Part shown: piece by piece, positions 10,393-25,955 of the stretch | Layout: each line of letters begins with the position of its first letter | Position numbering within the stretch: the stretch's first letter is position 1 | DNA from: an uncultured Ruminococcus sp. | GTDB lineage: Bacteria; Bacillota; Clostridia; Oscillospirales; Acutalibacteraceae | Assembly (NCBI GenBank): GCA_902794395.1 | Contig: CADBHB010000021.1 | Coordinates: 1 to 42,705 of the forward strand | DNA length: 42,705 nucleotides | Direction: 5' to 3' | Translations under genes and position numbers: made by a program | The notes under the pieces: generated by a model | Told to the model about the DNA's origin: nothing | The model's input: the letters and a program-made list of their open reading frames with translations, nothing else | The model's database searches: none

Positions 10393-10401
10393 GTGCGGAC
10401 A

Positions 10402-10731
10402 TTTGGTTGCCACTTGGTTGACATTTGGTTGACATTTGGTTGCCACTTGGTTGACATTTGGTTGCCACTTGGTTGACATTTGGTTGACATTTGGTTGCCA
10501 CTTGGTTGCCACTTGTTTGACATTTGGTTGCCATTTGGTTGCCATTTGGTTGACATTTGGTTGCCATTTGGTTGACATTTGGTTGCCACTTGGTTGACAT
10601 TTGGTTGACATTTGGTTGCCACTTGGTTGTCAATTGGTTGCCATTTGGTTGACATTTGGTTGCCACTTGGTTGTCAATTGGTTGACATTTGGTTGACATT
10701 TGGTTGACATTTGGTTGTCCATTGGTTGCCG
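10402..10731. repeat. 11-bp minisatellite, 30 tandem units
   Basis: The units are variants of YTTGGTTGMCA with exactly 11-base spacing for 330 bases. Variation is confined to the first base and to the ACA/CCA/TCA position, and the two are linked: GACA is always followed by T and GTCA always by A, while GCCA is followed by C or T. Because 11 is not a multiple of three, all three minus-strand frames stay open and spell the same 11-residue peptide repeat. I do not regard those as genes. Confidence 0.95.
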
Positions 10732-12103: not shown

Positions 12104-12238
12104 TCAGTGACCAATATAACATGGATCATCTCCCGAGGGGTTAAAAAATCTACAAGTATTGCCGCTGGATGTTGTGATGACATCCTCTGAATCCACACTT
12201 TCCACCTGAATGGAAATCTTGGTATATTCTTCCTTCAT
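12104..12238 (-). CDS. 44-aa candidate RiPP precursor peptide
   Basis: A short ORF with a near-perfect GGAGGTG site eight bases before its ATG. The N-terminal part, KEEYTKISIQVESVDSEDV, is acidic and leader-like, followed by ITTSSG and a C-terminal part with two cysteines (NTCRFFNPSGDDPCYIGH). The string EDVITTS and a later FNP also occur, in the same order and spacing, in the 46-aa peptide at 23518. It lies 75 bases after the radical SAM gene in the same direction, and a PqqD-like gene opens the operon. I infer that it is the substrate of that maturase, with modification in the C-terminal half. The modification type is unknown. Confidence 0.72.
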   Translation of the reverse strand: MKEEYTKISIQVESVDSEDVITTSSGNTCRFFNPSGDDPCYIGH

Positions 12239-12313
12239 CGTTTTCACCTCCTTACAGCTGATAAAAGAATTTGATTATTTGAAAACAGTATCGGCGATAT
12301 CGTCAATGCCGCT

Positions 12314-13646
12314 TTATTTGCCGTTAAAATATGTCCTGACGCTTCGGTCAAGGAAGTGGTTCAGATCCTCTTGCAGGATCGCTTTGCACTGCTTGGAAGC
12401 GTTCTTGACCGGGCACAAATCAAAGGTAGAGCACTTCGGAAGGAAAAAGCAGCCCGAGCATTTTTCGGAAACAGGCGGACGCGAGGTGTATCTCTCAAAA
12501 ACGTCGCGTTTGGTTACGCCGTCGAATACGTTGCCGAAATCGGTGCCTTTGTTACAGTGTTCGCAGGCAAACAGCCTGCCGTCCGCCGCGATCACCACGG
12601 CTTTATCCGGCGTTTGAGCCATGCAGTAGGTCACTTTTAAATTGTTTTTTTGTTCTCGCGGCGTCTTGGCAAAGCCTTTTGCCGAGGCTCTTTTGTTCCA
12701 AGCAAATCTCTCCCTGTACAGGTTCAGCTCATCGTTCGTTCCGTGAATTTGATACAGTGGTACAAATTCAAGTGAAAGGAGATTTTTGTCGGGAAAACGG
12801 CGGTCAAGGTCGTCGAGCATATTATCCAGCGACGGCAGATTATCACGGTCAAAATTGCACCGCAGGTTGACCCGAATACCCGCCCGATTCAGCAATCCGA
12901 CGTTATCCCGAGCCTTGAGGGGACACATAAGCCTTGCGGCGGTCGTATTCCGCTTGGTCGCCGTCAACGGTGATCTGAACATAGTTCAGCTTCCACTCGT
13001 CCTTCATTCTTTGAACGAGGGCGGGCGTGATCAGACTGCCGTTGGTAGTTAAATTTGATACAAATTCGACGCCGCTTTCGCGCAAAGCGGAACATATCCT
13101 GTCGATGATATCCGCCCTCACCAGCGGCTCTCCGCCGAACCACGACAGGGTGATTTTTCCGTTGCGCTTTGTTTTCAGGATATAGTCGATCGTCGCTTTG
13201 ACGGTATCATCGGACATCGTCACTATCTCCATGCCCTTTTCAAAGCAGTAAAAGCACCTCGCGTTGCAGGCGGTGGTTGGGAGTATCGTGTAACTCGAAT
13301 ACCCCTTTTCGCGCTTGCCGTACATCGCGATCACCAGCTCTATGAGCTGCTCGTAGGCTTCGTCCTCGTTTTGGTCTTCCTCAACCAAAAAGTAATCCAT
13401 GGCAAGCTGTTTGAGGCTTTCGTTTTCCATCAGCTCCGCGGCGGTGTACAGGCGGTCTTTTTCAAAAACAACTTCGCCGTTTTCAATTTGATAAAGCTGT
13501 GTGGATAAATTGTTGTATACAAAAACCCTGCCGTCCTTTTTATAGTCGCACACAAAGCACGACCATTTGTATTTTTTGCTTTGTACAAGCTCATGGCGGG
13601 TCAAAAGCTTTGCCGTGATTTTCTCCTTTGGCAATACTTCTATCAT
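12314..13646 (-). pseudogene. Radical SAM/SPASM peptide maturase, frameshifted
   Basis: Two frames together make one protein of about 440 residues. The first part (13646 to 12903) has the cluster motif CNARCFYC, WFGGEPLVR (SAM binding) and TTNGSLIT, and ends at a TAA just after AYVSPQGS. The second part (to 12314) resumes with DNVGLLNRAGIRVNLRCNFD and carries the SPASM cysteines CEHCNKG, CSGCFFLPKC and CPVKNASKQC. One extra base (or two missing) near 12906-12912 explains the break. Such enzymes install carbon-carbon or thioether links in peptides. All other hallmarks are intact, so the break may be recent or a sequence error. The start follows GGGAGAAACACAGAG. Confidence 0.85.
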
Positions 13647-13711
13647 CTCTGTGTTTCTCCCTTCAAACAATCGCGGCATAGAAGCCGTTTTTTTCGATCA
13701 GTTCCTCGGGA

Positions 13712-13978
13712 CTATTCATCTAACAGATCAGAGCTGCGGAGAATCGCTAAGAATTCGTCAAGATCGGCTTTTATGGTTTCCTCGGTCGCGTTGTATTTTT
13801 CAAGCAAGCCTTTAACAACTTCGTCATAGGTGACGTCGCTTTCCATCAGACCCCACGCATACGCTCCGCTGGGGTTCAGCGTAACCAAAACATTGTTGTT
13901 GTCCGCAGCGTCTTCCGCGGCTAAAGCGATATACTTATCGGCAAATTTTCTCAGGACATAACCGTCTTTGATCTTCAT
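13712..13978 (-). CDS. PqqD-like protein (RiPP recognition element)
   Basis: The protein has 88 residues. GYVLRKFADKYIALAAED, VTLNPSGAYAWGLME and the C-terminal helical part DVTYDEVVKGLLEKY with LDEFLAILRSSDLL match the PqqD fold, which binds leader peptides and delivers them to a modifying enzyme. It is the first gene of the operon with the radical SAM maturase and the 44-aa peptide, with a 65-base gap to the maturase. AAAGGAG precedes the ATG. A second PqqD-like gene, only distantly similar, lies at 23829. Confidence 0.85.
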   Translation of the reverse strand: MKIKDGYVLRKFADKYIALAAEDAADNNNVLVTLNPSGAYAWGLMESDVTYDEVVKGLLEKYNATEETIKADLDEFLAILRSSDLLDE

Positions 13979-14253
13979 TGTTGCTTCTCCTTTATTATGT
14001 TCAGAGCCGTGAAAGCGGCGTCGTCAAGGTAACATACCAAACTATAATACACTGTAAATCAAATATTATTGTAGCATAAATGCCGGAACAATACAATAAA
14101 AACCACAAAAAAACAAACAGATGGCAAAATCGTCCGCTTATTATGGGAATGCGGTATCCCGTTGTGCTCCGTTTTGCGCGGTGTCGGCGATTCTGAGCGC
14201 TTTTGTGATTCCCGAATTATCCTTTGACGAAACAGAATAATCGGGTATAATAA
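13979..14253. other. Intergenic region upstream of the peptide operon
   Basis: AT-rich DNA that should hold the promoter of the PqqD-like gene on the minus strand; TACAAT near 14070 is a possible -10, but the -35 is poor. Near the right end, TTGACG (14224) and TATAAT (14246), 16 bases apart, form a plus-strand promoter facing the relic at 14254. No convincing gene is seen. Confidence 0.35.
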
Positions 14254-14493
14254 AAACAGAAGGGAGATTATCACAGCGAATCTGATGTAGATATTCTTCT
14301 GACAGTTGATAAATCGCAGGAACAAATATCTCGGTGCCGCATGGCTGTTGCCGAGATAGCAAGCGATCTAAGTCTTGAACATGATGTTACGGTTTCAATC
14401 TCGGTCAAGTCAGCCGAATTGTTTGAAAAATATCAAAACGTATTGCCTTTCTATCAAAACGTGATAAGGGAAGGAGTCAAGTATGCAGGCTGA
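14254..14493 (+). pseudogene. 5'-truncated MNT-type nucleotidyltransferase (antitoxin relic)
   Basis: About 80 codons remain without a start. GDYHSESDVDILLTVD is the catalytic segment of minimal nucleotidyltransferases (G-S motif lost, D-x-D kept). It is followed by SDLSLEHDVTVSISVKSAELFEKYQNVLPFYQNVIREG, the usual C-terminal half. It overlaps the HEPN relic by 11 bases, the arrangement of MntA/HepT-type toxin-antitoxin pairs. The beginning is destroyed and an in-frame TAA stands at 14251, so it is not functional. Confidence 0.75.
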
Positions 14494-14685
14494 CGATAAA
14501 AAAGCATTGGCGGTTGTACGCCTTGACCGCGCCAAGGAATGCCTGACAGAAGCAAGCGACTTATACAACGCGGAAAAATACCGCGGCGCGGCAAATCGAT
14601 TGTATTATTCTATCTTTCATGCTATGCAAGTTGTTTCGTAGATGCGATTGATAGCTATTTGAAGTCACTTAATATTTTACAATAA
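14483..14685 (+). pseudogene. HEPN-domain (HepT-like) toxin relic with internal deletion
   Basis: The first 52 codons (RLDRAKECLTEASDLYNAEKY then RGAANRLYYSIFHAMQ) are a classic HEPN N-terminal half, with the start behind AAGGAG. A TAG follows, and another frame reads FVDAIDSYLKSLNILQ to a stop at 14685, which fits the C-terminal helix of the same domain. The middle, including the RNase R-x-x-x-x-H motif, is missing. Partner of the nucleotidyltransferase relic. Confidence 0.7.
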
Positions 14686-14691
14686 ATTGAA

Positions 14692-14728
14692 GGAGTTGTC
14701 TGATGATCCTCAGACAACTCCGTTTTTT
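14692..14728 (+). terminator. Strong terminator between the relic and the sigma gene
   Basis: GGAGTTGTCTGA and TCAGACAACTCC form a perfect 12-pair stem, followed by GTTTTTT. It survives although the genes before it are broken. Confidence 0.88.
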
Positions 14729-14768
14729 GCGCCCTGTTTCGCGGTGTCTTCGGCAATCAGGGGAGCCG

Positions 14769-16496
14769 TCAGCGGACGTCCGGCCGCACCAAATCGCCGT
14801 TCTGCTCGATAAAGCCTGCCTCTCTTAACGCGCGGTCGCGTTCCGCCTCGGTCAAGCCCAGCGTTTTTGCAGTATCATAAGCCGTTTGTTTGGTGGTTTT
14901 TCCGTTGTATACATATGCGTCGTCAATTCTATATTCCAAAAACGCGCAATATATGGAATAAAACGTGTCGCCCTTAAACAGCGTTTCGCCGATCACGTTA
15001 CCTGACAATGTGATTCGCACAGGCGTTGCGTAAACCGCAGGATCGGCATTTACCCACTCCGCAATATCGCAGGTTTTATCGGTATCAACGAAGTTTTCTA
15101 CGCGTCCCCCCGTTAAGTAAGCCATATCGCCGAGGCAATCGTTCCCGATGATAAGTTCACAGGATTGTTTTGCCGAATCCCAATCAGCCGAAAATATTAC
15201 CCCATAGGCGTTGTTGTCATCCATAGAGAAGCCGTATTGAGCGCCTTTTTCCGCGACATCATATGACCATATGTTATTGCCTTCATCGGTCATTCTGCCT
15301 TTTTTGCTTCCCCAGGCTATCGGGATGTTGTTATTTGTATCATATAAATATATATCTATGTATTCATAATCATGCCACAATGCGGGATCGGCGTAAAAAT
15401 AGATCTTGTTGTCGCTGCGCTTTTGCCATTCGGGCGGATTGCCGCGGTCGTATGTGCAGCTGTATGGCGTTACCTTCTGCCCGTCGTTGCGCATGGCGGG
15501 CAGCGCAAAGCCGAAAAAGCCTACCGAGCCGGCGGAAACCGCCACAGCGCCCGCGGCTATCAAAGCGACTGCCTTTGCGGAAACAGCTGCGCCTACGGCA
15601 GCTCCTGTAGTTGTACCTGCTGCGGCGCCTGTCGAAACGCCTGCCGTTGTACCCGACACGGCACCCGCAGCAGCGCCCGCGGAAACACTTGACGCGGTGC
15701 CTGCCGCAGCGGCGGCGCCTGTCGAAACGCCTGCCGTTGTACCCGACACGGCACCCGCAGCAGCGCCCGCGGAAACACTTGACGCGGTGCCTGCCGCAGC
15801 GGCGGTGCCTGCCGCGGCGCCGATCGCGGCGGACATAGGATGGACCGCCACCGTGCCGGCAAACTCACGCAGCATCCAGATGAGGAACGGAATGACAGTA
15901 ACAGCGGAAACGCGCAGCTTGTAGCCCTTCTTTTCCATATCCTCCGCCTGAGCGCGCATTTTCTTCTTTCCGTAGCTCATGCGGCTTTTAACGGTGTTTT
16001 CGCTTATGTCAAGCGCTTCGGCTATCTCTTTTATAGACATATCCTGAACGTAGTACATCAGCAGAACCATCTTCTGGTCGGCGGGCAGGTTGTCGAGCAT
16101 TTCGGCTACAAGGCGTTTTGTGTCGCTGTAGTCGGCGCGCTCCTCGGGCCGGAAGGCGGTGCTTTCGTCCTCAAATTCAAGCTCTAAGGAATCCTCGCCG
16201 TTGTCGTACTCCATGTCGGAAAACATGATGACGTTCTTTTTGCTGCGCAGAAAATCTCTGCACTTGTTGGCGGTAATCTTGTTGAACCACGGAATGAAGC
16301 CGGAAGGGTCGGTTAGCTGATCCAAGCTGTTGAACGCCTTGATGTAAGCGTCCTGCAAAACGTCAAAGGCGTCGTCCTCGTTGCCTGTCATCTTGAAGGC
16401 TACGGCGTAGGCGGGCTTGTAGCTTATGTTATAAAGCGCGGTTAAAGCCTGTTGATTGCCTTTTTGGGCGAGTATTACCAATTCTGCAATTTCCAT
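14769..16496 (-). CDS. ECF sigma factor fused to membrane segments and an outer domain
   Basis: The protein has 575 residues. Residues 10-85 are sigma region 2 (NEDDAFDVLQDAYIKAFN and IPWFNKITANKCRDFLR) and 130-185 are region 4 (LPADQKMVLLMYYVQDMSIK, then EIAEALDISENTVKSRM). A hydrophobic stretch (VIPFLIWML) follows at about 203-212, then a low-complexity Ala/Gly/Ser/Thr linker containing two identical 30-residue repeats, a clear membrane helix at about 303-328, and a 245-residue C-terminal domain (FYADPALWHDYEYIDIYLYD) resembling carbohydrate-binding-like modules of Ruminococcus. Fusion of a sigma factor to its own membrane sensor is unusual. The start follows AGAAGGGA and is preceded by a coupled 41-aa ORF. 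Confidence 0.85.
   Translation of the reverse strand: MEIAELVILAQKGNQQALTALYNISYKPAYAVAFKMTGNEDDAFDVLQDAYIKAFNSLDQLTDPSGFIPWFNKITANKCRDFLRSKKNVIMFSDMEYDNGEDSLELEFEDESTAFRPEERADYSDTKRLVAEMLDNLPADQKMVLLMYYVQDMSIKEIAEALDISENTVKSRMSYGKKKMRAQAEDMEKKGYKLRVSAVTVIPFLIWMLREFAGTVAVHPMSAAIGAAAGTAAAAGTASSVSAGAAAGAVSGTTAGVSTGAAAAAGTASSVSAGAAAGAVSGTTAGVSTGAAAGTTTGAAVGAAVSAKAVALIAAGAVAVSAGSVGFFGFALPAMRNDGQKVTPYSCTYDRGNPPEWQKRSDNKIYFYADPALWHDYEYIDIYLYDTNNNIPIAWGSKKGRMTDEGNNIWSYDVAEKGAQYGFSMDDNNAYGVIFSADWDSAKQSCELIIGNDCLGDMAYLTGGRVENFVDTDKTCDIAEWVNADPAVYATPVRITLSGNVIGETLFKGDTFYSIYCAFLEYRIDDAYVYNGKTTKQTAYDTAKTLGLTEAERDRALREAGFIEQNGDLVRPDVR
15622..15801. repeat. 90-bp tandem duplication inside the sigma-factor gene
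   Basis: Two consecutive 90-base units (15622-15711 and 15712-15801) are identical in the bases I compared and encode 30-residue Ala/Gly/Ser-rich repeats of the linker. Being in frame, loss or gain of a unit would change only linker length. Confidence 0.92.
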
Positions 16497-16498
16497 AT

Positions 16499-16624
16499 CT
16501 ATCCCTTCTTTGGAGGTTTTAGCTGCTCCAGAATGAGTTGAAGCAGCATTTTTGCCCGTGCTTCATCGGGTGTTGTGTCGGCGCAAATGTCGCGCAGCAC
16601 GGTTTTTAGAAAGCTGTCATTCAT
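16499..16624 (-). CDS. 41-aa ORF upstream of the sigma gene
   Basis: A short ORF (MNDSFLKTVLRDICAD, later PDEARAKMLLQLILEQLK) preceded by AGAGGTGAG. Its last codons AAGAAGGGATAG contain the ribosome binding site of the sigma factor, whose ATG lies two bases after its stop. The peptide is probably a single amphipathic helix. It may simply couple translation, or may bind the sigma factor. Similar leader ORFs ahead of ECF genes are known to me from Clostridia only as unnamed proteins. Confidence 0.6.
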   Translation of the reverse strand: MNDSFLKTVLRDICADTTPDEARAKMLLQLILEQLKPPKKG

Positions 16625-16641
16625 GCTCTCACCTCTTTCAT

Positions 16642-16674
16642 TTATATAACGAATGAAGCGAGAAAAATGTTTTA
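16642..16674 (-). promoter_or_regulatory. ECF-type promoter of the sigma operon
   Basis: On the minus strand TAAAAC (16674-16669), 17 bases and CGTTATATAA (16651-16642). This matches exactly the layout of the plus-strand promoter at 16871. The AAAAC and CGTT elements are typical of ECF promoters. A sigma-A-like alternative, TTGCAA (16716) with TATTAT (16693), lies further upstream. Confidence 0.68.
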
Positions 16675-16870
16675 TATTGCAATAAAAATAATATCATAGT
16701 ATTTCTGAGTTTGCAATACTTATAAAGGCGTATGATACTTAACGGCACGCAGATCTTAAGTGCAAATATGGGAAAAGACAGCTTTTATGCAGAGGTTATT
16801 ACGTCGATACGGAAGGCTTGTCAGGCAAAGCGAAAAAAATTTAAAAAAATCAAAAAAATTTTCAAAAACT

Positions 16871-16903
16871 TAAAACTTTTTTAAAAAACCCTCCGTTATA
16901 TAA
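16871..16903 (+). promoter_or_regulatory. ECF-type promoter of the 16958 membrane gene
   Basis: TAAAAC (16871-16876), a 17-base spacer and CGTTATATAA (16894-16903), followed by GTGA. The element and spacing equal those before the sigma operon, while the spacers differ. Confidence 0.68.
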
Positions 16904-16957
16904 GTGACCGAACAAAATCGGCGAATAACAAATTACTATTTTTAAAGGAGAATTATT

Positions 16958-17416
16958 ATGAAAAAGGTAAACCTGATTGAAGAAACAATGTTTAGCAGTG
17001 TCGAGGCAGCTCAGAGAGAAGTAAAATTTGCAAAGGTTAATTTGATCCGCATACTTATCGGAACCGGTTTTGCTGTTCTTTCTACAATTTTGCTGCTTAT
17101 TGCATTTTTCGGAAAGAACTCACAATACTATACATTTGCCGCGCTGCCCGCAATACCTGCCTACCTTATCGGCGGCGGCATCGGAAAGGCGGTTAAAGCC
17201 GCTTGGAAGATCACCAAGATAGGCTGGTTTTTGATCCCCGTATTCCCCGCTGATGTCTTGTTAGCTTTCGCGTTTTTCATCATATCGCTTTTTGCGTTCT
17301 TCTATATTCCGATCGTTTTTGTCGGCATGAATTACGTTGACCACAAAAGATCATTGAAAGCAGCCGAAGAATTTCTGATGCAGTATGCTCCTTCTGCGGT
17401 GGCACAGCCGTGCTGA
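16958..17416 (+). CDS. Membrane protein, probable target of the adjacent sigma factor
   Basis: The protein has 152 residues. A polar N-terminus (VNLIEETMFSSVEAAQREVK) is followed by hydrophobic segments at about 29-50, 58-75, 85-100 and 103-125, and a charged tail (DHKRSLKAAEEFLMQYAP). I do not recognise the family. It is transcribed divergently from the sigma operon, and its upstream region carries the same promoter elements, so I infer that it belongs to that regulon. AAAGGAG precedes the ATG by a good distance. It could be an anti-sigma or envelope-stress protein, but nothing in the sequence proves this. Confidence 0.65.
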   Translation: MKKVNLIEETMFSSVEAAQREVKFAKVNLIRILIGTGFAVLSTILLLIAFFGKNSQYYTFAALPAIPAYLIGGGIGKAVKAAWKITKIGWFLIPVFPADVLLAFAFFIISLFAFFYIPIVFVGMNYVDHKRSLKAAEEFLMQYAPSAVAQPC

Positions 17417-17489
17417 CAGGCAACCGCCGAAAATCAGCGCACACACAGCACTAACCATAGAAAAGCACCCCTTACGGCAGAATAAAAAC

Positions 17490-17529
17490 ACAGCGTGCAA
17501 GCAGCGAGAAATCGCCGCCTGCACGCTGT
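17490..17529. repeat. Conserved hairpin element, copy 1
   Basis: ACAGCGTGCA and TGCACGCTGT enclose an inner stem GCAGCGA/TCGCCGC. The element recurs at 34009 and 36902. Compared with copy 2, a C-G pair in the inner stem has become T-A on both sides, a compensated change. TTTTT follows on the plus strand and ACAAAAA-type T-runs on the other strand. Confidence 0.85.
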
Positions 17530-17532
17530 TTT

Positions 17533-17577
17533 TCAGCATATCGTAAAGTATTCGGGCGCGACATATCTCGACTGCCG
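17533..17577 (-). pseudogene. 3' remnant of a kptA gene
   Basis: The minus-strand frame reads QSRYVAPEYFTIC and stop, nearly the same as the end of the intact KptA at 34052 (QAKFVAPEYFTIC). The adjacent hairpin is shared too, so about 80-90 bases are homologous between the two sites. Nothing upstream resembles the rest of the gene. Confidence 0.8.
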
Positions 17578-17627
17578 CCCTGAACATAAAGCGAAAAAAT
17601 GATAATATGCTTTTGTCAAGGGGATGT

Positions 17628-17640
17628 TACCAGAATGGAA
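17628..17640 (+). promoter_or_regulatory. Candidate operator, copy 1
   Basis: TACCAGAATGGAA is the reverse complement of TTCCATTCTGGTA, one base from the perfect palindrome TTCCATTCTGGAA at 19891. It lies just upstream of the -35 of the HTH-receiver gene, a position suited to an activator or autoregulator. Confidence 0.55.
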
Positions 17641-17662
17641 ACGCCTAATTTCCATAAAACTA

Positions 17663-17692
17663 TTGTTTTTTTGTTCGGATTTAGTTTATAAT
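17663..17692 (+). promoter_or_regulatory. Promoter of the HTH-receiver/kinase operon
   Basis: TTGTTT (17663-17668) and TATAAT (17687-17692) with an 18-base spacer, about 40 bases before the start codon. Confidence 0.6.
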
Positions 17693-17730
17693 GATAAAAA
17701 AGTATTATAACTAAGCGACGGAGCATAAAA

Positions 17731-18321
17731 ATGAGTCAATTCTTTTCGGATACATTAAAGAAACTGCGAACAGAAAAAGGAATTTCACAGCAGGAATTAG
17801 CGGATAAGGTGTACGTTACCAGAGCCACGGTATCACGTTGGGAATCGGGCAATCGTTTACCTGACGCGATGATGATCTCTCGACTCGCAAAGGTTTTGGG
17901 CGTGGACGGCAGTATACTTTTCGCCGCGGTTGAACAGAGCGACGATTGTCCCAACGTCATTATGGTGGATGACAACAAGATCATCCTAAGCGGAGGCTTG
18001 CCCATCTTGCAGGAGGTGATGCCGAACGCCTCGGTTGCTGCCTTTACAAAACCGAAGGACGCGATTGAATACATAAAGGCAAACCGTGTGGCGCTCGTGT
18101 TCCTCGATATAGAGATGGGAACAATCAGCGGTCTGGAAGTGTGCCGCGAAATGCTTAACGTCAATCCGCGGCTCAACGTGGTGTATCTGACCGCGTATCG
18201 GGACTATTCCTTTGACGCGTGGAGCACGGGTGCGTGCGGCTTTATGTTGAAGCCGCTGACCGTCGAGGGCGTAAGAGAGCAGCTTAGTCGCCTGCGTTAT
18301 CCTATAAGGGGGCTTAACTGA
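17731..18321 (+). CDS. XRE helix-turn-helix fused to a response-regulator receiver
   Basis: The protein has 196 residues. Residues 6-62 form an XRE domain (GISQQELADKVYVTRATVSR, WESGNRLPDAMMIS), and 74-190 form a receiver domain (VIMVDDNKI, phosphoacceptor LVFLDIEMGT at Asp126, YLTAYRDYS, FMLKPL). The order, DNA-binding domain first and receiver last, is the reverse of ordinary response regulators. It is followed one base later by a LytS-type kinase, its likely partner. Two copies of a palindrome, one before this gene and one before the secreted protein at 20183, are candidate binding sites. Confidence 0.88.
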   Translation: MSQFFSDTLKKLRTEKGISQQELADKVYVTRATVSRWESGNRLPDAMMISRLAKVLGVDGSILFAAVEQSDDCPNVIMVDDNKIILSGGLPILQEVMPNASVAAFTKPKDAIEYIKANRVALVFLDIEMGTISGLEVCREMLNVNPRLNVVYLTAYRDYSFDAWSTGACGFMLKPLTVEGVREQLSRLRYPIRGLN

Positions 18322-18322
18322 G

Positions 18323-19591
18323 ATGGCAGTGAATACCTACGCAAATATCTGCATAGCGGGAGCGGCGACTGCAATAGCGGTAATCGGACTGATACTGTCT
18401 ATCAGCGCCCGTTATACCAAACAGGTTTACAAAAATTATTTGGTCACTGTTTTTTCACTGCTTACGGCGTATACCGTGAGCAATCTTGTGCTGTGGAACA
18501 TCCCGGAAGAGAACGGGAATGTGTTTGTTTCATACTTTTTCCTGTTCTGTGAGTCGCTGTTCTCGTCAATGATATTGCCTGTTCTTAACAGTTTCTTACT
18601 ATTCTGCGCCGAAAAACAGCAGCGTAAAAATCCTTTCGTTTATTTCGCCGTTTCGCTATGGGGCGTTTACTTCATTCTGCTTGTGATCGCTCAGTTCACA
18701 AAATGGATATACTATTATACCCCCGACAACGAGTATTTTAGGGGGCCGTTGTATCCTGTTCTGCTGGTTCCGCTTGTACTGCTTATGGTTGTCAATCTGT
18801 TCGCGCTGTTTAGGTACCGAGCGGAATTATCCCGAAGATACCGCATAGCGTTCACGGTGTACTTTCTGGTTCCGCTTCTGTGTATGGTAGTGCAGATGTT
18901 TTACTCGGATGTGCTCATGGCGGTGCTCGGCTCGGCTGTATCGGCGCTGATTATGCTGCTGATTATTGTTATGGATCAAATGGACAGACAGGTAGCTCAG
19001 GCGCGTGAGATCGCTATGCAAAAATCGAGTATCAATGTTCTGCAAATGCGGCCGCATTTCATCTATAACACCATGATGAGCATTTACTACCTCTGCAAGC
19101 AGGATTCGGATAAAGCACAGCAGGTAACGCTGGATTTCACCTCTTACCTGCGCAAGAATTTCACCGCGATCGCGAGCGAGGATACCATTCCTTTCCGTGA
19201 TGAACTGGAGCACACCCGCGCCTACCTCGCCGTAGAGCAGGCTCAGCATGAGGGCAGGCTGTTTGTGGAATTCGATACTCCGCATACACAATTCCGTCTG
19301 CCTCCGCTTACATTACAGCCCCTTGTGGAAAACGCGGTCAAGCACGGCATGGATCCTGACGGCGATCCGCTTCATATTTCCGTTATAACCCGCTGCATAA
19401 AGGGCGGCAGCGAAATCATCGTTAAGAACGACGTAGCAAAGTATGATCCCTCCGATGAAAATGAGCCGCATATCGCGCTGAACAATATCCGACAGCGGCT
19501 CGAAACGTTGTGCAAGGGCACGCTTAAGATCACGCCGCACGAGGAAGGCGGCACGACGGTCAAGGTGACCATACCCCTGACAGGCAAATAA
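18323..19591 (+). CDS. LytS-type sensor histidine kinase
   Basis: The protein has 422 residues. About seven hydrophobic segments occupy residues 8-220. The His_kinase domain follows with LQMRPHFIYNTMMSIYYL (phosphorylated His245), then DELEHTRAYLAVEQ and an ATPase domain with LQPLVENAVKHGM (N box) and ALNNIRQRLETLCKG. This arrangement is that of the LytS/YehU family, which senses membrane or small-molecule signals. It starts one base after the HTH-receiver gene, so the two form a two-component operon. The stimulus is not evident. Confidence 0.9.
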   Translation: MAVNTYANICIAGAATAIAVIGLILSISARYTKQVYKNYLVTVFSLLTAYTVSNLVLWNIPEENGNVFVSYFFLFCESLFSSMILPVLNSFLLFCAEKQQRKNPFVYFAVSLWGVYFILLVIAQFTKWIYYYTPDNEYFRGPLYPVLLVPLVLLMVVNLFALFRYRAELSRRYRIAFTVYFLVPLLCMVVQMFYSDVLMAVLGSAVSALIMLLIIVMDQMDRQVAQAREIAMQKSSINVLQMRPHFIYNTMMSIYYLCKQDSDKAQQVTLDFTSYLRKNFTAIASEDTIPFRDELEHTRAYLAVEQAQHEGRLFVEFDTPHTQFRLPPLTLQPLVENAVKHGMDPDGDPLHISVITRCIKGGSEIIVKNDVAKYDPSDENEPHIALNNIRQRLETLCKGTLKITPHEEGGTTVKVTIPLTGK

Positions 19592-19614
19592 GGCAAACGA
19601 TAAACGCGTGGCGT

Positions 19615-19778
19615 TTAATACTAAACTCAAATAAAAAAACAGACAATCTTTGCGGTCTGTTTTCCGCAATACTTCGTTGTCGCCCTTGCAAGGCGCCAGC
19701 CTTGCGGCGTCCCTCGCCTCGTCTTGCGAAAAATATCCTTGCAAATCTTTGTCCACTTTTTATCTGAGATTAGTATAA
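19615..19778 (+). mobile_element. MITE-like element with terminal inverted repeats
   Basis: The 164-base element begins TTAATACTAAACTCAAATAA and ends with the imperfect complement TTATCTGAGATTAGTATAA. The interior holds a CAGACAATCTTTGCGGTCTG hairpin and a GC-rich block. The copy at 1-110 matches it closely over about 105 bases in opposite orientation. It carries no transposase, so it would depend on an enzyme elsewhere. Confidence 0.72.
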
Positions 19779-19817
19779 GGCGGCACCTCGTGCTTATTTG
19801 CGGTGCTGCCTTTTTTG
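19777..19817 (+). terminator. Terminator after the kinase gene
   Basis: AAGGCGGCACC and GGTGCTGCCTT form a stem followed by TTTTTT. It abuts the MITE end. Confidence 0.8.
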
Positions 19818-19890
19818 TTTGTGCTGTTTTTCGTTAATAACATTATAGACAAATGTCAATAGCCGAAAGAAAAAAACTGTAAAAAAATGT

Positions 19891-19903
19891 TTCCATTCTG
19901 GAA
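19891..19903 (+). promoter_or_regulatory. Candidate operator, copy 2
   Basis: TTCCATTCTGGAA is a perfect five-base palindrome with a three-base centre. It lies in the 365-base gap before the secreted-protein gene. That gap otherwise holds AT-rich DNA and a TTGTTC/GAACAA hairpin at 19965-19980; the promoter is not obvious. Copy 1 is at 17628. Confidence 0.55.
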
Positions 19904-20182
19904 CCCCCCTTTAATTTCGTTAAACATTATTGTAAAATAAAATCGGAGGATTATGTAATTTTTTTGTTCAAAAGAACAATAGCAACCATTTGTTTATTTG
20001 TTCGGCAACAGCCGATGTTCGGTATAAAAATCATACGCGGTCAGCGGACAGAACTAAATAAGCACTTGTTATAAAAATGGAAATAGAGGGTCGGCTCTGC
20101 CCGCACCGGAATATAAATCGGAGCAAAGCGACCCGCAATTTTCAATTTTCAACTTTCAATTTGAAAAAAAGGAGGAATTACT

Positions 20183-23100
20183 ATGATTTCAAAAATCAAA
20201 AAACCCGTGAGCATCCTGTTATCACTCATCATGGTATTCAGCCTGTTCACCATCGTGCCGCTCTCGGCGAGCGCGGCATTCGGCGATGTTCTGTCGGAGT
20301 ATGATTATCTGACCTTCACGGCGGAAGAAGCCGGCGCTACGGTTACGCTGAATGTTTATTCCGGCAGTGATTTTCAGTATGATCTGAATGGAACCGGTTT
20401 GAACGATTATACTCCCGGCACGCCGATCACGCTCGAAGACGCGGGCGATTATGTTCGTTTTAGCGGAAAAGATACTACATTCAATTACAGTAATCACGTT
20501 TCGCTCACCGGAACAGTAGCGTGCAGCGGTAATGTCATGTCGCTGCGGCTCATTTGCGACATGGTCCACGGCTTGACCTACTCTTGCTTCGATTCTATGT
20601 TTTTGGGATGCACCGGATTAACATCAGCACCGGAGCTGCCTGAAACAGAGCTGGAGGATTCTTGCTACTGCCGAATGTTTTCCGGCTGCACCAACCTGAC
20701 CAAAGCCCCCGAGCTGCCTGCAACAAATCTGGCGTATGGCTGCTACGACAGTATGTTTGTGGGCTGCACGAGCCTGACCGAACTCCCCGCGCTTCCTGCG
20801 ACAACGCTGGCGGCAGAATGCTACTGCAATATGTTTTATGGCTGCTCGAAGATTTGTATTTCTGACCAGGCAGGTACCTTTGGTGATATTACATATTCAG
20901 CCGCATACAGGATCCCGGCCACAGGCGAGGGAACTTCGGCGTCTGATGCACTCTCATATATGTTTGCGGGCACCGGCGGTCAATTTACAGGAACCCCGGA
21001 CATCAACACGACCTATTATGTTCCTGCTCCCGCTACCGCGACCTACACCGTCACATGGAAGAACTGGAACGGCGATGTGCTTGAAACCGACGATAATGTA
21101 GCGGCAGGCACAACCCCGACCTATGACGGCGAAGTACCCACCAAAGCGGAGGACGAAACCAACACCTACACCTTCGCGGGCTGGCGCGACGGCAACACCA
21201 CCTACGGTCTTTCCGACACTCTCCCCGCGGTCTCCGGCGACGTGACCTACACCGCACAGTTTACCGAGACTGCGAAGCCACTCCCCGAGGTCATCAAGGA
21301 TTGTACCTATCAAAAAGCTGATTCCGGAAACTTTGCCAATGTTCCGTTTATGCCTGACGATGCCAGCGATTATTCTTCTCTCTTAGACGGCGCCATAAAC
21401 GTTGCATTCGACTCCGGAATGATTAGGCTGGCTGACGCAAAGGAATATTCGTATAAGTTCTATGATCAGACCGGAACGGAGATCGCTGCTACTCTAAGCA
21501 ATAGCTCAGAAGTCCCCGGCTCAGAAGCAGGGTTCAGCGACAATGTAACGTTTTATGTGAAGACTTTCACTCTTACACTCCCTGAAAACTTAGATAAATT
21601 ATACATCGTAGCGACCGAGCCTGCACCCGCTCCTGCAATGCTCATCCTCAACGTCGGCGAGAACGGCAAGGTCGTGATGGACAACGGCACCTTCGGCAAC
21701 GCGACCGATGCAAGCAATATTACTGAAATACCCGCTCCTTGTAATATTATTAACGGCTCCAATGCCACTATTGTTGACGGTCACACTTGTAATATTGTAG
21801 AAGGCGGTTCGATCAATATCGCCACAGGCGGCAGGGTTTCGTTCTATCCCTCTGCCGACAACACCGGTGTGATCACCGCGATACCCGACGAGGGTTATAT
21901 CTGCACCGGCTGGTACAACGGCGATACCCTCTACTCCTCCGACGCTGCTCTCAGCTATCAGAGCATCAGCGAGGATATGACCCTGACGGCGAAGTTTGCT
22001 CCCGCGCCCACCTACACCGTCACATGGAAGAACTGGAACGGCACAGAGCTTGAAAAGGACGAGAACGTAGCCGAAGGCGCAACCCCGACCTATGACGGCG
22101 AAACTCCGGTAAGACCCGAGGACATGAAAGCTACCTACACCTTCGCGGCATGGGACGACGGCACTACCACCTACGTCCTCGGCGTAGATGATCTGCCGCC
22201 CGTGACAGGCGACGTCACCTACACCGCGGTCTTTACGGCTGAAGCAAAACCCCTCTTTGTCGCTCATTCCGTCACCCTCGGCGGCGACATCGGCGTGAAC
22301 TTCTATCTGGATTCTGCTGTTCTTGATGCCTACGCCGGAACCAAGACCGTGAAATTCACCTGTGACGGCAAAGAAACTACTGTTGATGTTCCCGCGACCG
22401 CCACAGCTGACGGCTACAAGGTAACCCGCAACGTGGTAGCCGCTCAGATGGCGCACACCATCACCGCGACTCTCTATGTTAACGGTGAACCGGTGGATAC
22501 AGACGAATACAGCGTACGGGAATACGCCGAGAAGGTATTTGCGAACCCCGCAGCTTATGACAACAAGAACAAGCCCGAACAGCTCAAAGCGCTGGCGGCG
22601 GCTATGCTCCACTACGGCGGTGAAGCTCAGACCGTGTTCGCTTCCTCTTTGAACGAGCACCCCGACCGCGCAGACAGCAACCTTGACGATGCTGCCGATT
22701 ACTCCGGCGTTACCGCCAAGGCGGTCGCCGCTAAGATCAACGGTATAGCTTCCGATCTGAACGAGGTCGCTACAGCGCTCGACGCGGAGTTCTATACCAG
22801 CTCCCTGATCTATCTGCAGAACAACACCCTGCGCCTTTACTTCACGCCCGCGTCAAAGACGGTCGGCGCGCTGGACGGTAAGGGCTTCAGCGGCAATCTG
22901 TCCGACTACTATTACTATGTAGACCACGCGGACATTCCCGCGGCGAATCTTGACGATCAGCAGAGCTTCACCGTTGACGACGGCACCTTCAACTACTCTC
23001 CGCTCGATTATGTCAAGGCGGTTATTGAAAGCGCCAACATGACCGAACAGCAGAAGAACCTCGCAAAGGCTCTGTTCCTCTACAACCAGGCTGCGAACGC

Positions 23101-23503
23101 GTACTTTGACGCGGCTCCGGCTCCGGCTGAGAACGAAGTCTTCAGCAGCGGATCTATCGAAGATTTCTCCACACTAAACGTCGGTGACTATATTGCCAAA
23201 GGTGTAGAATATGCTGCTGATAATGATTATAAAGTTGTTCTGACAGGCGGGACATACGGCACAGAAAGTCGCGACGGTATTGTTGTCCGTAACGGTGATT
23301 ATAATTTTAACGCAGGTGAATACGGCATGGGTACCTATGGAACACACTATCCGCAACCAAACGTTTTCATTGAGGATTATAATGAAAACTTGAAATTATA
23401 TCCTGTCGTGGACGGTGTTGAGGGTAATGCATTTGTTGTTGTTGCAAAAGACGATACCCAAAAAATTATCACCATCGCCGGCGCGAATGTCACCCAGAAC
23501 TGA
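20183..23503 (+). CDS. Large secreted protein with BspA-like repeats and B-repeat-like modules
   Basis: The protein has 1106 residues. Residues 1-33 are a signal peptide ending SASAAFG. At about 138-225 there are three and a partial 26-residue repeats of the pattern MFxGCTxLTxxPELPxT, close to BspA-type leucine-rich repeats. Two copies of a B-repeat-like module (YTVTWKNWNG) lie at about 286-362 and 610-686, with a related piece between them (GYICTGWYNGDT). A large domain beginning HSVTLGGDIGVNFYL spans about 690-970. No dockerin, LPxTG or membrane anchor is visible, so the product may be released or held by another domain. AAAGGAGGAA precedes the ATG. The 46-aa peptide gene follows 14 bases after the stop. 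Confidence 0.88.
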   Translation: MISKIKKPVSILLSLIMVFSLFTIVPLSASAAFGDVLSEYDYLTFTAEEAGATVTLNVYSGSDFQYDLNGTGLNDYTPGTPITLEDAGDYVRFSGKDTTFNYSNHVSLTGTVACSGNVMSLRLICDMVHGLTYSCFDSMFLGCTGLTSAPELPETELEDSCYCRMFSGCTNLTKAPELPATNLAYGCYDSMFVGCTSLTELPALPATTLAAECYCNMFYGCSKICISDQAGTFGDITYSAAYRIPATGEGTSASDALSYMFAGTGGQFTGTPDINTTYYVPAPATATYTVTWKNWNGDVLETDDNVAAGTTPTYDGEVPTKAEDETNTYTFAGWRDGNTTYGLSDTLPAVSGDVTYTAQFTETAKPLPEVIKDCTYQKADSGNFANVPFMPDDASDYSSLLDGAINVAFDSGMIRLADAKEYSYKFYDQTGTEIAATLSNSSEVPGSEAGFSDNVTFYVKTFTLTLPENLDKLYIVATEPAPAPAMLILNVGENGKVVMDNGTFGNATDASNITEIPAPCNIINGSNATIVDGHTCNIVEGGSINIATGGRVSFYPSADNTGVITAIPDEGYICTGWYNGDTLYSSDAALSYQSISEDMTLTAKFAPAPTYTVTWKNWNGTELEKDENVAEGATPTYDGETPVRPEDMKATYTFAAWDDGTTTYVLGVDDLPPVTGDVTYTAVFTAEAKPLFVAHSVTLGGDIGVNFYLDSAVLDAYAGTKTVKFTCDGKETTVDVPATATADGYKVTRNVVAAQMAHTITATLYVNGEPVDTDEYSVREYAEKVFANPAAYDNKNKPEQLKALAAAMLHYGGEAQTVFASSLNEHPDRADSNLDDAADYSGVTAKAVAAKINGIASDLNEVATALDAEFYTSSLIYLQNNTLRLYFTPASKTVGALDGKGFSGNLSDYYYYVDHADIPAANLDDQQSFTVDDGTFNYSPLDYVKAVIESANMTEQQKNLAKALFLYNQAANAYFDAAPAPAENEVFSSGSIEDFSTLNVGDYIAKGVEYAADNDYKVVLTGGTYGTESRDGIVVRNGDYNFNAGEYGMGTYGTHYPQPNVFIEDYNENLKLYPVVDGVEGNAFVVVAKDDTQKIITIAGANVTQN

Positions 23504-23517
23504 CAGAAAGGACGTAC

Positions 23518-23658
23518 ATGAATATGAATAAAGAAACTTACGAGCGTCTGCAAATGGACGTGACAACCATTGACATTGAGGATGTTATCACGACCTCGGG
23601 TGTTGAACCTGTGGGCTTTAATCCCGAAAATCCGTGGGAGATGCCTAACAAGCCTTGA
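23518..23658 (+). CDS. 46-aa candidate RiPP precursor peptide
   Basis: The ORF starts at ATG 23518 (or 23524) behind AAAGGA and ends at 23658. It reads NKETYERLQMDVTTIDIEDV, then ITTSG and a Pro/Asn-rich tail with VGFNPENPWEMPNKP. The EDVITTS string and the later FNP match the 44-aa peptide at 12104, including their spacing; the rest differs and this one lacks cysteine. It lies 14 bases after the secreted-protein stop and about 170 bases before a PqqD-like gene. I infer a leader-core peptide handled by the downstream proteins. It could alternatively be a regulatory or signalling peptide. Confidence 0.7.
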   Translation: MNMNKETYERLQMDVTTIDIEDVITTSGVEPVGFNPENPWEMPNKP

Positions 23659-23713
23659 TTCTTTTTGATAGGCAAACTGTTGATTGCTGAACAAGAATCC
23701 CTGTAAATTACCA

Positions 23714-23757
23714 TTTGCGCCGCCGTTTGGCCGCAAAACACTAAACGGCGGCGCAAA
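23714..23757 (+). promoter_or_regulatory. Stable hairpin between the peptide and the PqqD-like gene
   Basis: TTTGCGCCGCCGTTT and AAACGGCGGCGCAAA form a perfect 15-pair stem with a 14-base loop. No T-run follows, so it looks like a partial terminator or an RNA-stabilising structure that could raise peptide output over the downstream genes. Confidence 0.7.
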
Positions 23758-23828
23758 AACCATACCGATATTCAATAGGAATCATATAGTTGATTTTTAT
23801 TGAATGTTTGTATCAAGGAGCGTTATCA

Positions 23829-24089
23829 ATGAAACTGAACAGCAGCTTTGTATATTATCAGCTCGACGGTCAGACGGTCATCGTTCCGACAACCGGCGCG
23901 CAGTTCCACGGCTTGGTGCAGGGCAACAAGACGCTCGCGGCTATTGTTGACTGCTTGTCGAGCGAAACAACAGAGCAGAATATCGTCGATAACCTCTGCG
24001 CGCGCTTTGACGGCGACAGAGCTGTTATCGAGGCAGACGTTCGTGAAGCAATCCAAAATTTCAGAGAGATCGGCGCAATAGATGAATAA
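23829..24089 (+). CDS. PqqD-like protein, second copy
   Basis: The protein has 86 residues from the ATG at 23829, which follows AAGGAG. VIVPTTGAQFHGLVQGNKT, AAIVDCLSSETTEQNIVDNL and VREAIQNFREIGAIDE follow the PqqD pattern (short beta sheet, then three helices with a final I-x-x-L/I-G). It overlaps the next gene by eight bases, so the two are coupled. Presumed role: binding the leader of the 46-aa peptide. It is not a recent duplicate of the 13712 protein. Confidence 0.78.
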   Translation: MKLNSSFVYYQLDGQTVIVPTTGAQFHGLVQGNKTLAAIVDCLSSETTEQNIVDNLCARFDGDRAVIEADVREAIQNFREIGAIDE

Positions 24090-25569
24090 GAAGTTTGAGG
24101 AGATCATCGCCGAGCAGGGCAGGCTGGTCTATACCAATGTGGGCGACAGCATGAATCCCGTCATCCGCGAGGGCAATCTGCTGGTGATCGAAGCCGTAAA
24201 AAAGCCGCTGAAGGTCGGCGACGTACCGCTGTATAAGCGCGACAGCGGACAATATGTGCTGCACCGTATCGTTAAGATCAAAAACGGCAAATATATGATG
24301 AAGGGCGACAACCGCGACTTTATCGAAAAGGGTATCACGGACAGGCATATCATCGGCGTGCTGACGCAGATCGTCAGGGACGGCAGGACCTTTCCTGTTG
24401 AAACGCCGGAGGAATACTTCCGAAGAATGACGATGGATATGGTCTATCTCGTATCCTGTGCCGTGAATACCGAAAAGCCCGATTATGAAAGGGTCGAAGC
24501 GTTGGATCTGCGCGGTATTCTTTCTCTGTCCCAAAAGCATATGCTGTCTGCGGCCGTCGCCTTTGCGCTTGAAAAGACTATACCTTTGCCTTACGCCTTT
24601 GACCAAGTCAAAAAGAATGCGATACGTAAACTGACATTATTCGAGGTTGAACGCGCGGTGATCACACGGGAATTAGAATCCAAAGGGATACGTTATTTGC
24701 CGCTGAAAGGCAGCCTGCTAAAAGACGATTATCCCAAATCCGCCATGCGCGAAATGACCGATATCGACATTTTGGTCGACAGCTCCCGCATGGATGAGGT
24801 AAAGCAGATAATGCTCAGGCTGGGCTATTCCGGCGGAGATTATCAGAAAGATCACGACGTTGTCTTTACGAAACCCCCGTCGCTTGTGTTTGAAATGCAC
24901 AACCGCCTGTTTGATAAAGAATCCCATCCGCTGTATGCCGCATACTTCCAAAGTGTTTGGGAGAGAGCGATCCCGATTCAGGGTACGCAATACGGATACC
25001 GAATGACGGACGAGGATTTTTATGTGTATCTGATCTGTCATATATACAAGCATTATCAGTACACAGGAACCGGCTTGCGTTCTCTGCTCGATGTTTTTGT
25101 CTTTTATAAAAAGCACGGTGACGCGCTTGACATAGCTTATCGGGACGCTGAGCTGAAAAAGCTGAAACTGACAGCTTTTGAACGCGGTATACATACTCTT
25201 GCAGACAAAGTGTTTACCGGCTCCGACTTGTCACAGAAAGAGAAAGCCGAGCTGGAACACTTTGCGGGTTCGGGTGTTTTCGGAACCGAAAAAAGCGCAG
25301 TACAATATAGGGTATCAAAATATTACAAAAAAGACGGCGGCAAAAAATCAGTATGGAACTATTATTTTCGCCGCGCGTTTGTTTTGTCGGAAAAAGATTT
25401 GGAAAAGTATTTTCCGTTTTTTTACCGACATAAATTCTTATTACCCGCCTTGCCGGTTTATCGGTTGGCAAAGGGTGTTGTAAGACACCCAAAGCGCCTT
25501 GTTTCCGAGTACAAAGCGGTCAAACATTTTGCTCCGTCAGACAGCGACGTGAATAAAAGTATAAAGTAG
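24082..25569 (+). CDS. Signal-peptidase-like domain fused to a nucleotidyltransferase
   Basis: The protein has 495 residues. Residues 15-110 resemble the S24/S26 (SipW-like) fold: VGDSMNPVIREGNLLVIE (Ser23), YVLHRIVKIKNGKYMMKGDN (His61, GDN at 75-77). The serine and histidine correspond to the Ser-His pair of ER-type signal peptidases. Residues about 130-430 match the uncharacterised nucleotidyltransferase family (PF14907 type): RYLPLKGSLLKDDYP and EMTDIDILVDSSR, with the metal-binding D-x-D. Such nucleotidyltransferases accompany several RiPP clusters. No transmembrane helix is obvious. I infer leader cleavage plus peptide modification by the same polypeptide, not shown. Confidence 0.8.
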   Translation: MNKKFEEIIAEQGRLVYTNVGDSMNPVIREGNLLVIEAVKKPLKVGDVPLYKRDSGQYVLHRIVKIKNGKYMMKGDNRDFIEKGITDRHIIGVLTQIVRDGRTFPVETPEEYFRRMTMDMVYLVSCAVNTEKPDYERVEALDLRGILSLSQKHMLSAAVAFALEKTIPLPYAFDQVKKNAIRKLTLFEVERAVITRELESKGIRYLPLKGSLLKDDYPKSAMREMTDIDILVDSSRMDEVKQIMLRLGYSGGDYQKDHDVVFTKPPSLVFEMHNRLFDKESHPLYAAYFQSVWERAIPIQGTQYGYRMTDEDFYVYLICHIYKHYQYTGTGLRSLLDVFVFYKKHGDALDIAYRDAELKKLKLTAFERGIHTLADKVFTGSDLSQKEKAELEHFAGSGVFGTEKSAVQYRVSKYYKKDGGKKSVWNYYFRRAFVLSEKDLEKYFPFFYRHKFLLPALPVYRLAKGVVRHPKRLVSEYKAVKHFAPSDSDVNKSIK

Positions 25570-25586
25570 ATTCCGGAGGTTTGAAA

Positions 25587-25955
25587 ATGAAAAGAATAGT
25601 TGTGATAGCTTTTGCTGTGATTTGTTTGTTTGCTGCTATCGTTATTAGCCTGCCGGTATCTGCCGCAGGCGGTTATCTTCGCGGCGACGCGGACGGCGAC
25701 GGTAATGTGAATATCAAGGATGTTACGACGATCCAACGGCACCTTGCCGACATTGATCGTCTCAGCGGCAATCGTATCAAAGCCGCCGACGTGGACGGCA
25801 ACGGGCTTAATATTGACGACGCGACACGGATTCAGCGGTATCTGGCGGAGTTTGAAAATATTTATCATATTAACGAAACGGTTACCGTTCCCGATCCGAC
25901 AACACCTCAACCGACGAGCGATCCTTTCGAGCTGCCGGTTGTTCCCAAAAAATAA
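25587..25955 (+). CDS. Small secreted dockerin protein
   Basis: The protein has 122 residues. A signal peptide (about 1-28, ending LPVSAAGG) is followed by a dockerin with two calcium-binding repeats: DADGDGNVNIKDVTTIQRHL and DVDGNGLNIDDATRIQRYL. The tail is Pro/Thr-rich (PDPTTPQPTSDPFELP). It contains no catalytic module, so it can only dock to a cohesin or present its tail. The ATG at 25587 has GGAGGT six bases upstream; a TTG at 25581 is in frame. It is 17 bases after the fusion gene and probably in the same transcript. Confidence 0.88.
   Translation: MKRIVVIAFAVICLFAAIVISLPVSAAGGYLRGDADGDGNVNIKDVTTIQRHLADIDRLSGNRIKAADVDGNGLNIDDATRIQRYLAEFENIYHINETVTVPDPTTPQPTSDPFELPVVPKK

Follow-up and report, generated by a model that had tools for sequence, protein, structure and literature searches.

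Can one leader peptide serve two unrelated sets of modifying enzymes? The question is raised by a stretch of DNA of 42,705 nucleotides from an uncultured Ruminococcus sp. (contig CADBHB010000021.1 of assembly GCA_902794395.1), here called the window. Two of its short open reading frames (ORFs) code for peptides, named a and b, which an original prediction took for precursors of ribosomally synthesized and post-translationally modified peptides (RiPPs) with one type of leader, handed over to a radical SAM/SPASM enzyme at locus a and to a peptidase-nucleotidyltransferase at locus b. This interpretation turned out to be partly supported. There is indeed one leader family, and its two enzyme sets appear to be matched to two types of core, with and without Cys. 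Beyond this, we consider it moderately probable that we deal with a RiPP family resembling the linear polyphosphorylated peptides (LPPs), which has a radical SAM branch, is processed partly in trans, and yields a product that belongs with secreted and tail-bearing surface proteins.

The two ORFs read as had been described. That of peptide a (12104-12238, minus strand, 44 amino acids) is in full MKEEYTKISIQVESVDSEDVITTSSGNTCRFFNPSGDDPCYIGH; that of peptide b (23518-23658, plus strand, 46 amino acids) is MNMNKETYERLQMDVTTIDIEDVITTSGVEPVGFNPENPWEMPNKP, a start at 23524 being equally likely as the earlier-noted one at 23518. Ribosome sites were located upstream of both, GGAGG before a and AGGA before b. 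The common string Y...DVITTS is present in either peptide, and each has its PqqD-like neighbour (Table 1). The likeness is beyond chance: peptide b alone, used as query against its own genome (2.2 Mb, 51 contigs), lists peptide a among 12 places with E = 0.005. A later FNP, which had also been counted as a common feature, is not conserved and is a coincidence. The close relatives of peptide a end in GGDPCYVCYM (locus L130; L numbers denote loci) or GGDPCWVCYM (L129), without FNP, and a relative of peptide b in L153 ends in DNPWEMPAGM; the endings of the relatives of both peptides thus rule out FNP as part of a common motif.

The 12 places are short ORFs with the leader, spread over 9 contigs, and all have a ribosome-site match upstream. 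In 10 of them the gene close upstream codes for a secreted protein with a two-part C-terminal domain (CTD); only peptide a, which follows the radical SAM gene, and the C36 peptide, which follows a small dockerin protein, depart from this arrangement. Searched with a profile built from the 12 peptides, 36 of 60 genus genomes, the own one included, were seen to have the family, with up to 9 leader peptides in each of the others. At the level of the phylum a broader profile finds it in just 3 of 398 genomes, again including the own one (E <= 1e-5). The DVITTS string therefore marks a specific, mainly genus-level family. For the further counts 95 stretches were taken around the genus matches, the six weakest of 122 matches (E above 0.002) being left out; together with the loci of the own genome they hold 116 leader peptides, which collapse to 114 distinct ones. 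With the last S of DVITTS counted as -1, Y(-20) is found in 112 of the 116, F(-10) in 100, D(-6) in 115, T(-2) in 106 and S(-1) in 112, where fixing the positions by the best fit to DVITTS favours the counts for D, T and S. Upstream of 108 of the 116 a ribosome site is matched in 4 or 5 bases, a number favoured by the partial use of such sites in choosing the starts. Seven leader peptides checked against NCBIfam and Pfam models had no match. Nor was the family found described in the literature searched by motif or feature terms, a scope that leaves bioRxiv and most subscription papers outside.

The match between core and enzyme is seen in the cysteines. A core with Cys was found in all nine peptides that have a radical SAM gene within 1.5 kb, as opposed to 1 of the 105 other distinct peptides, and this single one comes from L099, a locus that holds a radical SAM gene too. 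The Fisher test yields p = 1.5e-12, uncorrected for relatedness; the value overstates the independence of the data, because six of the nine peptides are related and have a common KYxKA leader. The search was also run from the side of the enzyme. Relatives of the radical SAM protein occur in 25 of 161 genus genomes. Among 20 of the 30 matches, which were examined as loci, 16 hold a leader peptide and each of these 16 has at least one Cys core, 6 of them repeating loci of the earlier set; L131, L135, L145 and L146 had no leader match, and L129 has two leader peptides, one without a Cys core. Cys cores beside a radical SAM/SPASM gene, as expected for RiPPs of the sactipeptide or ranthipeptide type, are thus the rule from either side. 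Peptide a itself falls into a small group with L129 and L130, with the ending GGDPC[WY]VCYM. The best matches of three radical SAM proteins beside Cys-core peptides include TIGR04463, TIGR04280 and the PapB ranthipeptide maturase NF047865, yet all stay far below the curated cut-offs. In the window the gene (12314-13679, minus strand) is broken by a frame change into two overlapping frames, which may reflect real decay or an assembly error; relatives with a single open frame exist, among them one of 460 amino acids in another genome, 54% identical to the N-terminal part.

The second enzyme set is that of locus b. Its peptidase-like domain has the Ser, His and Asp motifs (GDSM, LHRI, KGDN), which are kept in complete peptidase-like domains. 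In other genomes cassettes of varying completeness comprise a CTD protein, the peptide, a lipoprotein, a dockerin protein, a kinase-like gene, PqqD, a signal-peptidase-like gene and the NTP transferase, the last two being fused or separate. In 25 loci with both peptide and PqqD, the NTP transferase and the peptidase-like domain were each found 16 times.

Which genes accompany the peptides most steadily? Within 5 kb of the 114 distinct peptides, PqqD is found for 25, NTP_transf_5 for 17 and a radical SAM gene for 10, any of the three for 31. The corresponding numbers are 76 for the CTD, 52 for a dockerin and 100 for one or the other; all these counts are lower bounds, owing to contig ends and home-made profiles. 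The steadier partner, unseen by the original prediction, is therefore a secreted CTD protein or a dockerin protein. For PqqD the 25 have to be compared with about 1 to 2 expected, as estimated from some 3 PqqD genes per 2-Mb genome.

For 72 of the 116 peptides the end of a CTD gene lies close upstream, at a distance of -60 to 400 bp; the median gap is 15 bp, and 58 of these gaps lie between -5 and 30 bp. Of the peptides without CTD upstream, 19 of the 116 have a dockerin gene within 120 bp, 15 of which lie upstream on the same strand. In L068, L081, L085 and L095 leader peptides stand behind large proteins that have another ending, with GGCY..YN in it, in place of the CTD. Starting from the CTD, by the motif LxG[DN]I[GA][VLI]N[FY][YF] in a collection of named species, 296 relatives were confirmed. 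The best 80 of them, mostly titled Ruminococcus or other Clostridia, with two Alistipes, were used as loci; 3 end too soon to be judged, 66 of the remaining 77 have a leader peptide in the 600 bp that follow the CTD frame on its 3' side, and 11 have none. The 66 include a weak match (L177, 9 bits), and the count partly depends on the second profile, as some named loci are seemingly the same contigs as its sources. In the 60 genus genomes the CTD is present in 30 and the peptide in 36. The two occur together in 29 genomes; 1 has the CTD without the peptide, 7 have the peptide without the CTD, and 23 lack both.

No Pfam or NCBIfam family matches the CTD above its cut-off. Its AlphaFold2 model, built from 52 alignment rows, is a confident one (Table 1) and consists of two sheet-plus-helix halves. 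A profile search of solved structures gave nothing better than E 0.033, to parts of cellulosome scaffold proteins, and Foldseek weak immunoglobulin- or fibronectin type III-like matches alone (best E 0.035). The N-terminal parts of the CTD proteins vary, with LRR_5 and InlB-like domains over cut-off, and beta-helix and cohesin below. Hence, the CTD together with the peptide behaves as a portable module.

The closest known system is that of the LPPs (PMC13381572, Nat Commun 2026). They are characterized by a leader YxxPxVLxHQxIxFETxxS, a stand-alone RiPP recognition element (RRE), a SipW-like peptidase, an NTP transferase, an HprK-like kinase, an MsbA-like exporter and a core polyphosphorylated at Ser3; a Ser-His-Asp triad of the peptidase LppS was shown to be needed, LPP-type gene sets in capsule loci are described, and the role of LPPs and paeninodins is stated to be unknown. 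Its main text contains no words beginning with clostridi-, ruminococc-, surface, lipoprotein, rumen or radical. There are several likenesses: a stand-alone RRE of the PqqD type lies beside both window peptides, the SipW-like domain with its Ser/His/Asp motifs and the NTP transferase are present at locus b (no such peptidase was found at locus a), and the leaders are conserved N-terminally with variable C-termini. Some leaders, e.g., that of L224, read Y..P...IxFET, and the lack of a lasso leader peptidase over cut-off in the genomes searched is a further likeness. There are also differences: here the precursor genes are dispersed and associated with those of CTD proteins, lipoproteins and small dockerin proteins, and there is a radical SAM branch with Cys cores. 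Most leaders lack YxxP, and where it occurs, as in L224, P and IxF stand 3 residues closer together.

Two gene groups of the own genome may be mentioned here. In L028 (6759-11085) a kinase-like gene (6759-7511), PqqD, a signal-peptidase-like gene and an NTP transferase gene lie beside a polysaccharide flippase gene (PF01943); a motif scan of the short ORFs with a ribosome site found no precursor. In L027 (7663-10507, minus strand) a pair of PqqD and signal-peptidase-like genes adjoins those of Cpn60 and Cpn10, with no NTP transferase in the stretch.

From the family, its gene neighbours, the match of Cys cores to radical SAM genes and the similar tails described below, all of which are observed, we infer the following scheme. 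The leader Y-x4-[LMI]...F...D-V-I-x-T-S would be held by the stand-alone PqqD-type RRE and removed by the cytosolic SipW-type signal-peptidase-like protein, which at locus b is fused to the NTP transferase. The latter, perhaps together with a weakly HprK-like protein that is present at few loci and elsewhere in the own genome, would modify the peptide; a possible site is the Ser/Thr of D-V-I-T-T-S, which hardly varies. The cut may fall after F-x-T, which would leave D-V-I-T-T-S in the core and make the Ser a candidate target, or after T-T-S. In the second branch the same leader would bring Cys cores to the radical SAM/SPASM enzyme, which would probably form thioether bonds in them. About ten scattered precursors could depend in trans on a single enzyme cassette or a few of them. 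The product would probably act at the cell surface, since most precursors lie behind secreted CTD proteins and core-like tails are found on a lipoprotein and a dockerin protein in some loci; it may be a soluble form of the ligand that these two display.

Several findings weigh against this scheme. The LPP leader motif is mostly lacking: [YW]xxP at the fixed position is found in 4 of the 114 genus leaders and in 10 of 62 named ones, while in the same comparison Y or W(-20) is kept in 110 and F(-10) in 98 of the 114. A kinase-like gene is seen in just 4 of the 25 loci with peptide and PqqD and not in the window cassettes, with one more elsewhere in the own genome, in L028, and its label is weak, as the HprK models match with E 0.003 to 0.1, far below cut-off, and ScmC does better in most cases. 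Exporter genes are rare as well: an ABC-transporter-like ORF turned up, by regular expression only, in 1 of the 25 loci. Since neither the leader motif nor the kinase nor the exporter characterizes these clusters, the family is not classed as a member of the LPPs, although it probably works like them. Further, PqqD is present in 60 and NTP_transf_5 in 59 of the 60 genus genomes, with and without the peptide. Finally, for 83 of the 114 distinct peptides none of the three enzyme genes (PqqD, NTP_transf_5, radical SAM) lies within 5 kb. The original prediction had named an equally frequent occurrence of the motif in short ORFs away from RRE or modifying enzymes as evidence against itself. What holds of it are the two enzyme sets and the cores that match them; proximity to the enzymes does not hold in general, and most peptides would therefore have to be processed in trans.

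The same numbers can be read in another way. The peptides might be small cytosolic partners of the secreted CTD proteins, i.e., a chaperone, an adaptor or a regulator of expression, perhaps by coupled translation, and the RiPP enzymes would then be incidental or recruited. The CTD gene close upstream, the short median gap, the outcome of the search from the CTD side (among the best 80 of 296) and the many peptides without an enzyme nearby agree with this idea. So does the covariation of leader and CTD: in a matrix test on 107 CTD-peptide pairs the similarity of the CTD tracks the leader (partial r 0.37) more than the core (0.22), which is a further point against the scheme proposed here. A direct coevolution of CTD and core was rejected, as linkage explains these data equally well. 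The cytosolic partner is, however, at odds with the Cys cores beside radical SAM genes, which are what a substrate of such an enzyme is predicted to have, with the leader peptides that stand behind a dockerin gene without CTD upstream (15 of 116) or behind a radical SAM gene (peptide a), and with the enrichment of PqqD nearby. On balance we regard it as rather unlikely.

The tails deserve a closer look. In L100 core-like tails are found on three carriers, SDPDELPFVPAN, TDEDELPFVPAD and RDPDELPFVPAR; in the named locus L197 DEDELPWVPANE is paired with EEDELPWIPA. Within loci the tails are more similar than by permutation: 0 of 400 permutations reached the observed mean in each of three pairings, i.e., core and lipoprotein (17 pairs), core and dockerin (32) and lipoprotein and dockerin (17), with 10 of 27 lipoprotein candidates dropped beforehand by a filter on linker composition and dockerin rows without a tail kept. 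In the window the dockerin tail DPFELPVVPKK compares with the core end NPWEMPNKP, and the lipoprotein gene is cut short. A type I dockerin (Pfam PF00404) is found in the small proteins that adjoin part of the peptides, but these differ from usual proteins of this kind: they consist just of signal peptide, dockerin, linker and tail, with no enzyme domain in the three scanned. Of 57 dockerin matches in the own genome, 5 are in frames of at most 150 amino acids, and all 5 lie at peptide loci. In four peptide-free genomes such short frames account for 5 of 108 dockerin matches, so that they are not exclusive to genomes with the peptide.

If these tails are taken seriously, a surface-built RiPP system may be considered, in which one leader serves the LPP-like and the radical SAM set, most precursors have a secreted CTD protein as their partner, the core is the soluble, modified form of the displayed tail, and the products act in assembly or signalling at the own surface rather than as bacteriocins. 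This is a tentative proposal, which we put forward with some doubt. One might also turn the argument around and regard the tails as primary, namely as a C-terminal sorting or anchoring tag of lipoproteins, mini-dockerins and a few CTD proteins, the leader peptide serving to present a copy of this tag to modifying enzymes in the cytosol. The permutation tests fit this idea, and so do L100, where the same tail occurs on all three carriers (DELPFVPAN, DELPFVPAD, DELPFVPAR), and L084 and L098, where the CTD protein has a C-terminal tail of its own (EYEDDMV, EYEDDMI) that resembles the tail of the peptide behind it. The tails, however, fall into several unlike groups, and in L010 of the own genome the peptide end PYEDDETSRIK is unlike the neighbouring dockerin tail YELPFIPY. 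We regard a tag of this kind as improbable.

Lasso peptides of the paeninodin/pseudomycoidin type (PMC9266682, PMC10368454) likewise have an RRE, an NTP transferase and a kinase, the latter two as tailoring enzymes (PMC9266682), and a YxxPxL-like leader with Thr(-2) (PMC10368454). That the peptides of this family are lasso precursors, as Y and L five apart, Thr(-2), the often acidic cores and the Gly that starts 57 of 114 of them could suggest, is nevertheless most improbable and was rejected for lack of the leader peptidase B2 (PF13471), which is over cut-off in none of the 32 genomes searched of the 36 with the peptide (one sub-threshold match, E 9.7e-5; the cyclase PF00733 was not searched), half of the cores having no initial Gly and many not being of lasso form.

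The ties of most precursors to secreted proteins, and in some loci to tail-bearing lipoproteins and dockerins, offer a concrete place to seek their role, namely in surface assembly in Ruminococcus. With its match of Cys cores and radical SAM genes, this single leader family clearly exemplifies how a leader can be common to two unrelated chemistries. The CTD, in addition, is a confidently modelled domain for which no close solved relative was found.

Table 1. Features of the two peptide loci in the window (positions of the whole stretch)
Feature	Position	Strand	Basis and remarks
Peptide a, Cys-core type	12104..12238	minus	44 amino acids; MKEEYTKISIQVESVDSEDVITTS / SGNTCRFFNPSGDDPCYIGH; relatives beside radical SAM genes in L129, L130
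C-terminal (SPASM) part of the broken radical SAM/SPASM gene	12314..12982	minus	Pfam SPASM E 0.0065; NCBIfam TIGR04463 E 2.4e-6, TIGR04085 E 1.2e-5; all below curated cut-offs
N-terminal (Radical_SAM) part of this broken gene	12903..13679	minus	Pfam Radical_SAM E 8.7e-14
PqqD-family stand-alone RRE, locus a	13712..13978	minus	Pfam PqqD E 9.5e-14
Large protein with signal-peptide-like start and repeats, carries the CTD	20183..23503	plus	InlB-like match below cut-off
CTD, two-part C-terminal domain	22262..23110	plus	Alignments; AlphaFold2 pLDDT 94.7; no Pfam/NCBIfam family over cut-off
Peptide b, Cys-free type	23524..23658	plus	MNKETYERLQMDVTTIDIEDVITTS / GVEPVGFNPENPWEMPNKP; relatives in L151-L155
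PqqD-family stand-alone RRE, locus b	23790..24089	plus	Pfam PqqD E 3.7e-9; ATG 23829 with site upstream is the likelier start
Fusion of SipW/archaeal-type signal-peptidase-like domain and NTP_transf_5	24082..25569	plus	Pfam NTP_transf_5 E 1e-43, Peptidase_S24 E 5.5e-6; NCBIfam TIGR02228 E 4.3e-11 (below cut-off)
Small secreted dockerin protein, PT-rich linker, tail DPFELPVVPKK	25581..25955	plus	Pfam Dockerin_1 E 7.9e-8
Lipoprotein-like start, lipobox LVGC, stop after 40 amino acids	25989..26111	plus	Full tail-bearing lipoprotein nearby in relatives L152, L153, tail like that of the dockerin

A few other features of the window may be added. An Rfam search of the window gave no match. A tandem array of about 30 copies of an 11-bp unit occupies positions 10398-10728 and is open in several frames. 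Between 14769 and 16496 (minus strand) an extracytoplasmic function (ECF) sigma factor is fused to a long stretch rich in Ala, Gly and Ser and to a C-terminal part that has a sub-threshold carbohydrate-binding match; inside this fusion gene, at 15622-15811, there is a 90-bp repeat.

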